Of a stretch of DNA of 64,000 nt, positions 52,571 through 55,792 are shown piece after piece. Source of the stretch: Snodgrassella communis (GTDB lineage: Bacteria; Pseudomonadota; Gammaproteobacteria; Burkholderiales; Neisseriaceae). The position numbers were made by a program, and so were the translations under genes. Numbering within the stretch: the first letter of the stretch is position 1; each line of letters starts with the position of its first letter. The stretch is from assembly GCF_914768045.1 (NCBI RefSeq), contig NZ_CAJZCD010000002.1, positions 248,001 to 312,000 on the forward strand, given 5' to 3'. A model generated the notes under the pieces. The model was not told the DNA's origin, did no database searches, and was given only the letters and a program-made list of their open reading frames with translations.

Positions 52571-53287
52571 TTATTCCCGCACATCACGCTGAGTTTGCTG
52601 CCCATAATCTTCCGCTGCAATCATGGTCGCAACCTGATATGCCGTATCTTCAGCACTTTGTAATTGATTTTTCGCCTTTAAATTAATGAAATTATGTACC
52701 AGCGGAAATTTTTCCGCATTCGCCGAACGAATATTCTGCTGCATATTGGTATCCACCACTCCGGGCGCAATACTGGCAATACGTACGCGTGGATGATTCT
52801 CGGCAGCTACAACTGCTGCATGCTGATCCAGCGCAGCCTTGGTAGCACCATAAACACTCCAGCCGGCTATAGCATGACGGCCAGCGCCACTACTGATATG
52901 TGCAATACGAATATCTGCTTTAGTAGCTGCTGCAATAACTGCATTGGTTAATAATAATGGTGCAGTAATATTTACCGCTATCGCTTTAATAATCGCATCA
53001 TAGTCCTGCTGACCAGTCAGTGCATTCGGTTCCACGATTCCAGCATTATTAATTAGAATCACCTCATTCTTATTTTCCAGATTATTCTGCCAACTGGCTG
53101 ATTGTACAAGTGTAGCTAAAGCCTCAGCATCAGCAAAATCAATCACATATTGCAATAATCGTTCTGGCGGATTGTCCCAGCCATGTCGCGACAGACCAAC
53201 CACCCTGATTTCCTGAGTCAGATAATATTCAGCCAGAGCGCGCCCCAAACCGCGATTATGACCAGTAATAATCACACAATTTTGCAT
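52571..53287 (-). CDS. Short-chain dehydrogenase/reductase
   Basis: 238 residues with a Rossmann fold. The nucleotide loop is ITGHNRGLGRAL, then NNAGI, a catalytic Ser in ISSGAGR and the YGATK pair (YxxxK). VDTNM after the PG loop is as in sepiapterin reductase-like and BzrD-like enzymes. The substrate cannot be told. AAGGA precedes the ATG at 53287. The first part of this gene and its upstream region recur in degraded form at 54.8-55.0 kb. Confidence 0.85.
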   Translation of the reverse strand: MQNCVIITGHNRGLGRALAEYYLTQEIRVVGLSRHGWDNPPERLLQYVIDFADAEALATLVQSASWQNNLENKNEVILINNAGIVEPNALTGQQDYDAIIKAIAVNITAPLLLTNAVIAAATKADIRIAHISSGAGRHAIAGWSVYGATKAALDQHAAVVAAENHPRVRIASIAPGVVDTNMQQNIRSANAEKFPLVHNFINLKAKNQLQSAEDTAYQVATMIAAEDYGQQTQRDVRE

Positions 53288-53590
53288 ATCAAATTCCTTT
53301 TCCAAGATTAACCAGATTCACAGCAGAATAATGCCCTAGCCAGACAGAATACTACTTCTGGTTCTCAACCAGAATCATTTTAAAACAGCTTGATATACAT
53401 TGCGTAAAAGATTTACCTCAGCGCGATACCATTACCGTTATTATGCCTTTAAAATTTAAAAATATTAGCATAGTCACAAATGATAGCGTATTATCGCAAT
53501 TTCCAATGCTGAGGAGAAAACCGATGCGAACAGACATTAACTTTTGATAAAACAACATCCGTCTGCACACCTATCCCCATTTCTTGTCAA
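53046..53590. repeat. Left copy of a divergent duplication flanking bioB
   Basis: Carries the SDR 5' part, the SDR/tadA intergenic region and a degraded tadA 5' part. It aligns by eye with 54790-55290 over most of its length, with small indels and a deletion of about 70 bases in the right copy. Best-matching stretches include AAAACAGCTTGATATACA in both, at 53386 and 55078, and TTATTTTCCAGA..ATTCTGCCAAC near 53071 and 54815. Confidence 0.8.
53386..53590 (+). pseudogene. Broken N-terminal copy of tadA
   Basis: The stretch parallels codons of the intact tadA N-terminal domain downstream. AAAACAGCTTGATATACATTG corresponds to the KQLDIHC codons, then AAGATTTACCTCAGCGCGATACCATTACCG follows the same order as in the real gene. 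The start codon region is missing and frameshifts are present, so it is dead. It precedes bioB directly. Confidence 0.7.
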
Positions 53591-53675
53591 TTTAATAATT
53601 TTAAATGGTTGGCAATATAGCATTGAATTGTATGCAGTATTGAAAATCCCAAGCTTATTACTAAAGGAAATTATT

Positions 53676-54701
53676 ATGTCATTGGGCATTATTCGTCATA
53701 ACTGGGTCTTGCCTGAAGTTATGGAACTATTTCAACTACCTTTTAACGATCTTATCTTTAAGGCTCAAACTGTACACCGGCAACACTTCAATTCAAATGA
53801 AGTACAAGTATCAACCTTATTATCGATTAAAACAGGTGCCTGCCCGGAAGATTGTAAATATTGTCCCCAGTCCGGCCATTACAATACAGGATTAGATAAA
53901 GAAAAATTACTTGAGGTACAAAAAGTCATAGAGAAAGCCAAAGCGGCTAAAGCCATAGGTTCAACCCGTTTTTGCATGGGAGCAGCATGGAAACAGCCTA
54001 CCGTCAGAGATATGCCTTATGTCTTAGAGATGATAAAAGGTGTAAAAGAATTAGGCATGGAAACTTGTATGACTTTAGGTAAATTAACATCAGATCAAGC
54101 CCATGCTTTGGCCGAAGCCGGATTAGACTACTATAATCATAACTTGGATACTTCACCCGAATTTTATAGTCACATCATCACTACTCATACATACAATGAT
54201 CGATTGCAGACATTGGCTTACGTGAGAGATGCAGGTATGAAAATTTGTTCAGGTGGTATTCTGGGTATGGGAGAGTCAGTCAGTGATCGCGCAAATTTAT
54301 TAATTCAATTAGCCAATTTACCACCACATCCAGAAAGCGTTCCCATTAATAATCTAGTTAAAGTTAAAGGTACACCTCTAGAAAATGAACCAGATATAGA
54401 ACCGTTTGATTTTATCAGAATGATTGCTGTTGCCCGTATTATGATGCCAGAATCCTATGTACGTTTATCGGCAGGAAGGCAACAAATGAATGAACAGACA
54501 CAGGCATTAGCTTTTTTAGCAGGAGCTAATTCTATATTCTATGGAGATAAATTATTAACAACAGCTAATCCTCAGATAGAAAAAGATCAGGCATTATTTA
54601 TTAAATTAGGGATTATGGCGGAACAACAGCAGGATTACAGCGATGAAGTGCATCAAGCTGCTATAGAACAAGCTGTTATCGAGCAACATCAAGCCAAATA
54701 A
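53676..54701 (+). CDS. bioB: Biotin synthase
   Basis: Radical-SAM enzyme inserting sulfur into dethiobiotin. 341 residues from the ATG at 53676 with AAAGGA upstream. The radical-SAM cluster is Cys56, Cys60, Cys63 (CPEDCKYC); second-cluster ligands lie in [15 protein letters not shown] and KICSGG, and YVRLSAGR follows. Wording such as [44 protein letters not shown] and [15 protein letters not shown] is closer to gammaproteobacterial BioB than to what I recall of Neisseria BioB. The gene is more AT-rich than its neighbours and lies between duplicated sequences. No other biotin genes are nearby. Confidence 0.96.
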
Positions 54702-54789
54702 CAAATCAAAAGTTATCGAATTATAACTTTTTAAAATGAACTCAATCATTTCACTTTGCAGAATAGAAATTATTTAGTTGTATCAATGT

Positions 54790-54967
54790 GGCTTAATTAT
54801 TCAATACCTCAGTTTTATTTTCCAGACAATTCTGCCAACAGGCAGATTGTCCCACCCTCATGCCACAACATGAACTGCTGGATTTACTGAGTAAGATATT
54901 ACATTTAATCTGTACATACACAAACCATATTCAGTAATAATCACATAATTTACGCAGATCAAATTCT
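54790..54967 (-). pseudogene. Broken 5' copy of the SDR gene
   Basis: On the minus strand this follows the first codons of the intact SDR gene (antisense CAGTAATAATCACAT near 54932 matches CAGTAATAATCACAC near 53263) and later codons near 54805-54850, with a deletion between them and frame damage. No start codon in frame. A remnant of the duplication. Confidence 0.7.
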
Positions 54968-55290
54968 TTTTTAAATCGACCAGATTTATAGTAGGATAAT
55001 GGGCAACATTCATTCCATTTGCTTATGATTACGCCATTTACTACCCCCCCCTTAACGCCTAAAACCATAGCTATCCTAAAACAGCTTGATATACACTGTG
55101 TAGAAGATTTACAGCGGCGTGGTGCCATTACCGCTTTTTTACAGTTAAAAAACATCAGCACAAGTAGTACTGAAAGCGTGTTATGGCAATTTATCGCTTT
55201 AGTGGAAAACCGTGCTGCACAAAGCTTGAGCGCTGAAGAGAAAACATTTTGGCGTCAACAAATAAAACAGCATCCACCAGTAGCCCTGTT
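54790..55290. repeat. Right copy of the divergent duplication flanking bioB
   Basis: Same order as the left copy (SDR 5' part, intergenic region, tadA 5' part), but here the SDR part is degraded and tadA is intact. Identity looks like roughly three quarters by eye, with gaps. Confidence 0.8.
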
Positions 55291-55792
55291 TCCGTCTGCA
55301 AAAATCATGCAACACTGGATGCAACAGGCATTACATGCAGCGCAGCAGGCACAGTTACTGAATGAAGTGCCGGTAGGTGCAGTTGTGGTATACGAAAATA
55401 ATCTCATTGGTTGTGGCTATAATCGTTGTATTACCGACCATAATATCAGCCACCATGCTGAAATACAGGCGCTAACCGCTGCCAGTAAAGCACTGAGTAA
55501 TTATCGCTTACAGGATTGTGATGTATATGTCACTCTGGAGCCTTGTGCCATGTGTGCCAGCGCCTTAATACAGGCCAGAGTGAAAAGAGTGATCTATGGT
55601 ACTGCTGAAATCAAAACCGGTGCTGCTGGCAGTGTAATTAATTTATTTAACAATCGCCAGCTTAATACGCATACCGCCGTTCTGGGCGGTGTACTGGCGG
55701 CTGAATCCAAAGAATTATTGCAGCAATTTTTCCGGCACAAACGCAAATCTAACCAAATAACAAATACGTCTGCCAGCAATACAGAGCTTTAA
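55025..55792 (+). CDS. tadA: tRNA-specific adenosine deaminase with TfoX-C-like N-terminal domain
   Basis: Deaminates adenosine 34 of tRNA-Arg(ACG) to inosine. 255 residues, longer than the usual 150-170. Residues 1-80 carry LTPKTIAILKQLDIHCVEDL, then RGAITAFLQLK, resembling the C-terminal helical domain of TfoX competence regulators. The deaminase part has HAE at about 144-146 and PCAMC near 173-177, the zinc site, with VPVGAVVV before. The ATG at 55025 is preferred over a TTG two codons earlier. A run of eight C lies in codons 7-9. Confidence 0.93.
   Translation: MITPFTTPPLTPKTIAILKQLDIHCVEDLQRRGAITAFLQLKNISTSSTESVLWQFIALVENRAAQSLSAEEKTFWRQQIKQHPPVALFPSAKIMQHWMQQALHAAQQAQLLNEVPVGAVVVYENNLIGCGYNRCITDHNISHHAEIQALTAASKALSNYRLQDCDVYVTLEPCAMCASALIQARVKRVIYGTAEIKTGAAGSVINLFNNRQLNTHTAVLGGVLAAESKELLQQFFRHKRKSNQITNTSASNTEL

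Follow-up and report, generated by a model that had tools for sequence, protein, structure and literature searches.

In the 64-kb stretch of Snodgrassella communis DNA analysed here (the window; positions 248,001 to 312,000 of contig NZ_CAJZCD010000002.1), the biotin synthase gene bioB lies between two incomplete copies of the junction between a short-chain dehydrogenase/reductase (SDR) gene and the tadA gene. We consider it probable that this arrangement arose by insertion-duplication, a piece of a Pseudomonas-like biotin operon having been captured at the SDR/tadA divergent promoter with duplication of the target. In an ancestor of most Snodgrassella, bioB and about the first 150 codons of bioF would have been joined into this promoter, leaving a target of about 0.6 kb on both sides, bounded by codon 86-90 or so of SDR and codon 87 or so of tadA (looser alignments extend further into tadA). 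Owing to the repeat, both SDR and tadA would have retained their whole upstream region and 5' end, and nothing would have been broken. The surplus tadA', SDR' and bioF' would then have decayed, staying readable in one clade of the genus (C, which includes the window) and being mostly or wholly erased in two others (A and B), while bioB would have stayed under purifying selection, completing imported dethiobiotin to biotin. What the locus shows (an orphan bioB, horizontal transfer and insertion-duplication) belongs to known kinds; no paper on bioB in Snodgrassella was found in the literature searched on Snodgrassella and biotin.

The duplicated SDR/tadA junction

The locus occupies positions 52571-55792 in the order SDR (intact), tadA' (fragment), bioB, SDR' (fragment), tadA (intact), and contains the following features.

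52571-53287, minus strand: SDR, intact, left working copy (Pfam adh_short, 7.7e-29; 13 of 14 Snodgrassella genomes have an SDR homologue next to the slot)
53288-53366, no strand assigned: divergent promoter region of SDR/tadA, left copy, from which the -10-like TATAGTA of tadA is absent
53367-53566, plus strand: tadA' fragment, decayed 5' part, in relatives reaching to about codon 87 (88 nucleotides (nt) at 76%; tblastn 59.5%, 2e-10; alignment with relatives); the right end at 53566 is approximate, a strict alignment stopping earlier and looser ones later
53600-53675, plus strand: bioB leader, about 75 nt, with a -35-like TTGGCA/TTGACA (similar across 11 aligned Snodgrassella leaders; putative promoter, read by eye)
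53676-54701, plus strand: bioB, biotin synthase, intact, foreign (Pseudomonas-like) by sequence comparison (TIGR00433, 413.7 bits against a cut-off of 225; Pfam Radical_SAM and BATS)
54703-54781, plus strand: bioF relic, very decayed (DNA alignment with the relic-bearing spacers of genomes G002, G008 and G010)
54806-54977, minus strand: SDR' fragment, decayed, 5' part and upstream region, in relatives reaching to about codon 86-90 (flank alignments, tblastn and blastn, relatives)
54978-55024, plus strand: divergent promoter region of SDR/tadA, right copy, preceding the working tadA and containing TATAGTA (54987-54993)
55025-55792, plus strand: tadA, intact, right working copy (MafB19-deam 2.3e-36, dCMP_cyt_deam_1 9.6e-26, TfoX_C 1.7e-9; present in 14 of 14 genomes)

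From these matches the tadA product is predicted to be a deaminase of the tRNA adenosine type that carries a TfoX_C-like part at its N terminus. The Pfam matches and flank alignments bear out the initial annotation of this DNA, which had placed bioB, with this gene order and these coordinates, between two half-broken junction copies, and had seen one working copy of each gene kept (SDR and tadA, both intact) and the other decayed (the tadA' and SDR' fragments). The insert between the junction copies consists of the leader of about 75 nt, bioB, the truncated bioF relic and short spacers.

The two flanks match each other in four gapless blocks, which are collinear: 53061-53105 with 54806-54850 (45 nt, 87%), 53263-53282 with 54932-54951 (20 nt, 95%), 53284-53301 with 54954-54971 (18 nt, 89%) and 53367-53454 with 55063-55150 (88 nt, 76%). 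The pairwise alignment suggested in the initial annotation gave a best local score of 95, and 200 dinucleotide shuffles reached at most 37 (mean 23.2, standard deviation 2.7); in blastn of flank against flank, the three best pieces had E values of 3.7e-18, 3.4e-12 and 1.2e-11. The flanks are thus alike far above chance, and both matches that had been quoted as examples are present, but the similarity is patchy and not an even alignment of about 500 bases, both surplus copies having decayed and undergone deletions. Longer repeats survive in relatives, 306 nt at 73.5% for SDR' in G002 and 155 nt at 75.5% for tadA' in G010. The duplication of the flanks is real. Chance similarity or shared promoter motifs hardly enter into consideration as its explanation, given the score of 95 against the shuffled maximum of 37 and the repetition of coding parts, found by tblastn for tadA' in six genomes and for SDR' in five.

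The distribution of the locus was followed in 14 Snodgrassella genomes, including that of the window (G000); two of them are incomplete (G003, 86%; G006, 60%). All 14 contain tadA, and 13 have SDR beside the slot, the contig of G004 ending inside bioB. The window-type bioB is present in 12, of which 11 have both sides assembled and G004 is the twelfth. The remaining two are G011, without any bioB, and G012, with a Neisseriaceae-type bioB at another place. In both, SDR and tadA are directly adjacent with a single junction, as had been predicted for strains without bioB. Within-genome searches identify both remnants in six of the 11 fully assembled holders (G000, G002, G003, G008, G009 and G010), which together make up clade C; tadA' was found by tblastn in all six and SDR' by tblastn in five, the sixth SDR' (G009) being found by blastn. 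Outside the genus, SDR was found in the flanks (up to 1.5 kb on each side) of none of the 16 tadA loci that were obtained from other Neisseriaceae. As a side observation, three of these 16 loci (L237, L238 and L239) have a bioB about 1.2 kb from tadA.

The spacer between bioB and SDR' seems tolerant of insertions. In G009 it contains an extra open reading frame of 176 amino acids (L114:4263-4793), which no NCBIfam model matched and which we take to resemble a DinB/ClbS-type protein. The right spacer of G008 (L113) carries an insertion of about 1.2 kb that splits the SDR' remnant and looks transposon-like by eye.

Foreign bioB and the bioF relic

Three things are absent from the initial annotation: the foreign origin of bioB, the bioF relic behind it, and the five of 11 holders that have no clear flank copies. 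Of the 80 bioB loci listed as matches, one is from S. alvi and 79, at 76-79% identity, carry gammaproteobacterial names, nearly all of them Pseudomonas or close genera and two Pantoea. Full-length bioB genes of the rest of the family Neisseriaceae, and the one G012 has of its own, show 52-61% identity, and two partial ones 64%. In a tree of 42 proteins, Snodgrassella bioB groups with 11 Pseudomonas-type sequences (support 100/100), apart from the Neisseriaceae bioB, within which that of G012 nests; the gammaproteobacterial sequences were picked from the best matches, and the exact donor is thus not fixed by the tree. On identity and phylogeny, then, bioB is foreign and was acquired horizontally, with Pseudomonas-type genes as its nearest relatives. 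A possible piece of donor DNA in front of bioB was also considered, the left spacer of G009 matching Pseudomonas upstream DNA on the opposite strand with E values of 0.004-0.04; we took these matches as chance.

The gene is well preserved. It matches the solved biotin synthase 1r30 with an E value of 5e-149, and the CxxxCxxC motif and further cysteines are kept. Values of dN/dS (the ratio of non-synonymous to synonymous substitution rates) could be computed for 11 of the 15 pairs that six genomes give and lie at 0.03-0.10, dS being saturated in several of these pairs; bioB looks to be under purifying selection by this measure. The canonical Neisseria DNA uptake word, GCCGTCTGAA, has no copy in the window. 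The most over-represented 10-mer in the window, among those with at least six copies, is CATTACTGGT, with six copies, about 37 times the expectation.

In Pseudomonas-type loci bioF follows bioB (for example in L121), and it is found in the flank of 78 of the 79 loci. Remnants of this neighbour are recognisable in Snodgrassella. A bioF hidden Markov model (HMM) scores 12.3 bits on the bioB-SDR' spacer of G002 (0 of 300 shuffles as good), 11.4 bits on that of G008 (0 of 60) and 10.5 bits on that of G010 (0 of 300), the matches covering model positions 121-150 or 121-144 and, in G010, also 36-58; the spacer of G009 scores 2.2 bits (0 of 60). The window's spacer alone is not recognisable as bioF (-4.0 bits, 184 of 300 shuffles as good). 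At the DNA level, its positions 54703-54781 align with the relic spacers of the relatives, the best score being equalled in 0 and the mean in 1 of 1000 shuffles. The corresponding figures are 3 and 0 of 1000 for G003 and 97 and 95 for G005, with G001, G007 and G013 at chance. In strand and gene order the relic agrees with bioF of the Pseudomonas-type bioB-bioF loci, and SDR' starts within about 30 bases of its end. By these alignments the relic came in together with bioB. Its position behind bioB implies that the incoming DNA was a piece of an operon, cut inside bioF as far as visible.

Timing and route of the capture

A tree of rpoB, rooted on G012 and containing 12 of the 14 genomes (G001 and G003 gave no rpoB match), has G011 branching after G012, followed by clades A (G005, G006), B (G004, G007, G013) and C, the last being monophyletic with support of 99/97 for the five of its six genomes in the tree. 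The rpoB of G012 itself (C26:3795-7939) appears as two matches, to model positions 1-1107 and 1080-1237, reflecting a frameshift, a break or an assembly fault. The bioB tree, rooted on the Pseudomonas-type genes, recovers the same clades (A 81/99, B 100/99, C 96/99) and places G001 in A and G003 in C. The single slot and the agreement of bioB clades with rpoB clades point to a single acquisition of bioB. That G011 and G012, the two lineages branching off ahead of the holders, have the slot empty supports capture in a later ancestor.

The remnants were placed in a combined tree with the intact 5' parts. Approximately unbiased (AU) tests reject their grouping with G011 or G012 (p 0.004 and 0.005), and with it an import from outside the genus, as well as a separate duplication in each species (p 4e-6). 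In the single-gene tree the tadA remnants form one clade (97/96). By these trees the remnants are Snodgrassella's own DNA and stem from one event.

For clades A and B, a test anchored at the SDR start found that clade A spacers resemble the empty-type junction, the means for G001 and G005 being equalled by 0 and 1 of 60 shuffles. A narrow test on the tadA start region found 19 of 21 nt matching at the homologous position in G005 (1 of 2000 shuffles), with 23 of 2000 for G006 and 118 of 2000 for G001. As the working tadA of clade A still has this start region in front of it, the weak trace would represent a second copy. We regard it as moderate evidence that capture and duplication were one event.

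Several observations weigh against the favoured reading. Within-genome searches give no clear remnants in five of the 11 holders (G001, G005, G006, G007 and G013; in G005 only a 13-nt exact match). Neither the HMM nor DNA alignment revealed a bioF relic in clades A or B; on the spacers of G005 and G007 the HMM score was equalled by 247 and 262 of 300 shuffles, and the other clade A and B spacers gave no match. A first, unanchored test (300 shuffles), in which the spacers of these two clades were compared with tadA and SDR, showed no trace in either clade. Clade B has no remnant in any test, standing at chance in the SDR-anchored one (44 and 41 of 60 shuffles as good) and at about 890 of 2000 in the narrow one. 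The narrow test is not clean: of two known remnants, that in G009 did well (1 of 2000) and that in G002 did not (282 of 2000), while among the four controls a stretch behind bioB in G001 reached 24 of 500; the clade A trace thus comes from later, narrower tests and mainly from one genome. Among the trees, the more conservative Shimodaira-Hasegawa test leaves the placements with G011 or G012, and with them an import from outside the genus, unrejected (p 0.0515), the SDR remnants alone are not resolved as one clade, and the best tadA tree did not keep clade C and the remnants together, a grouping that is neither shown nor rejected (p 0.206 in the tadA tree and 0.379 in the SDR tree). A duplication on the stem of clade C and one before the split of A, B and C are undecided by the trees (p-AU 0.43 against 0.27).

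The five clade A and B genomes without clear remnants, and a C-stem duplication being allowed by the trees, would suit two separate events, with a clean entry of bioB in the ancestor of the three clades and a later rearrangement in clade C that added tadA' and SDR'. We think this unlikely. Both junctions in clade C are of the empty type, with SDR upstream DNA joined directly to tadA upstream DNA, and a duplication of SDR-bioB-tadA would, by our reasoning, not give tadA'-bioB-SDR'. Given how short the divergent promoter is, a clean insertion should have disrupted one of the two promoters, and the clade A trace also speaks against it.

The initial annotation had proposed a Campbell-type single crossover, in which a DNA circle with bioB and a homologous stretch of SDR/tadA entered the chromosome. 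Such a circle would give exactly the observed order with host-type remnants, and both the direct repeat of the target on the two sides and the single junction in bioB-less relatives agree with it. Recombination of electroporated linear and circular DNA, dependent on recA, is described for S. alvi (PMC11389375), which also favours it; the paper presents one-step knock-out of genes in strain wkB2 as well. However, no circle was seen and none is needed. The circle must already have joined foreign bioB-bioF' to 0.6 kb of Snodgrassella chromosome, so that a crossover would come on top of the two illegitimate joints needed anyway. No element, mobility or replication gene was recognised in the window's spacers, which by itself decides neither for nor against a circle. 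Nor is there a close bioB among the matches listed for known plasmids (best 68.4% among 30 of 285 records) or phages (best 67.3% among 10 of 12), both below the 76-79% of the chromosomal Pseudomonas-type matches, in listings that may omit records close to the window's genome. Integration of a circle is given somewhat less credence than two separate events.

An older tandem duplication of the junction, with the bioB piece inserted between the copies later, had been mentioned in the initial annotation as giving the same final order, which it does. It appears improbable, as two independent events at one spot would be required and neither of the two genomes with an empty slot (G011 and G012) has two junction copies.

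For the insertion-duplication that we favour, illegitimate joining of an operon piece to target ends that overlap accounts for the locus no less well than a Campbell circle, the sequence alone being unable to separate them. A linear fragment seems the likelier joining agent: a linear operon fragment could have bridged sister chromosomes or filled a widely staggered break, for which two joints would suffice. In another species, transformation makes tandem duplications and merodiploids (Johnston et al. 2013, PMC3784515). As in the merodiploids described there, recipient DNA is tandemly duplicated and the surplus copies are free to decay. The duplications reported there are about 100-900 kb long and rest on repeats common to donor and chromosome, whereas the Snodgrassella repeat is about 0.6 kb, has foreign DNA at the joint and is an old event, and uptake by transformation in Snodgrassella is only a possibility. 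In homology-facilitated illegitimate recombination, foreign linear DNA likewise integrates with an illegitimate joint, but one end is homologous and the other illegitimate; in Snodgrassella both foreign joints look illegitimate and the target is duplicated.

The divergent promoter and the supply of biotin

In the empty form without bioB, the starts of SDR and tadA are about 80-110 nt apart, so that their promoter elements must overlap or adjoin. The TATAGTA motif is present in all 14 tadA-side stretches and in none of 11 SDR-side stretches of 70 nt, from which each junction copy seems to keep only the half that it needs. A target-duplicating capture may offer a way for a foreign gene to enter a tight divergent promoter while sparing both neighbours, the promoter then being split into an SDR half in the left copy and a tadA half in the right one. 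With the remnants of clade C and the near-clean loci of A and B as possible stages of clean-up, it is conceivable, though we advance it only tentatively, that many clean-looking insertions began in this way. Closely spaced divergent starts are also a property of the bidirectional bacterial promoters described in PMC12825309 and PMC10268837; in comparison with these, the function of the SDR/tadA promoter is read from conservation alone.

The bioB leader of clade A (G001, G005 and G006) contains a perfect or near-perfect inverted repeat, with arms of 10-11 nt that are 20-22 nt apart; it is weaker or absent outside this clade. It is a possible candidate operator, for which BirA was considered. 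The BirA-type biotin ligase is fused to a type III pantothenate kinase (CoaX) in a protein of 575 amino acids (L234:400-2127), in which no helix-turn-helix match exceeded the cut-off.

The genes for the preceding steps of biotin synthesis are missing from the 13 genomes other than G012. In these, bioD was not found, no bioA exceeded the cut-off (related aminotransferases match below it) and no bioF match was convincing (best E value 1.6e-7; no match in G006). The bioF of G012 scores 389.7 bits (curated cut-off 426). The transporter BioY is over the cut-off in 12 of the 14 genomes, including the window's, with G012 and the 60%-complete G006 as exceptions, and in 11 of the 12 holders of the window-type bioB. 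From this gene content, the organism of the window should not make biotin de novo, and as bioA, bioF and bioD were not found and BioY is present, the orphan BioB probably finishes scavenged dethiobiotin, imported into the cell, to biotin. Bacteria with bioB but without the preceding biotin genes are reported to be able to grow on dethiobiotin (Wienhausen et al. 2022, PMC9561691), and Snodgrassella resembles the cases presented there in its gene content. That study discusses bioB as retained while the rest was lost, and leaves open a possible second, unspecified BioB activity; in Snodgrassella, in contrast, the only bioB is an imported one, whose operon partner bioF decayed after import.

The locus documents a single gene capture with unusual clarity, in that a donor operon neighbour, a target duplication, empty sites and clean-up stages are found in one genus. 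It suggests that insertion-duplication can be the starting point of foreign insertions that now look clean. Along the tree, the genus appears to have started with full synthesis (G012), then to have relied on transport alone (G011) and finally to have combined transport with an imported last step, an ordering inferred from the branching. For a core bee-gut symbiont this gives a testable biotin story, with G012 having its own bioA, bioF, bioD and bioB, G011 having BioY without bioB, and the others having the imported last step.

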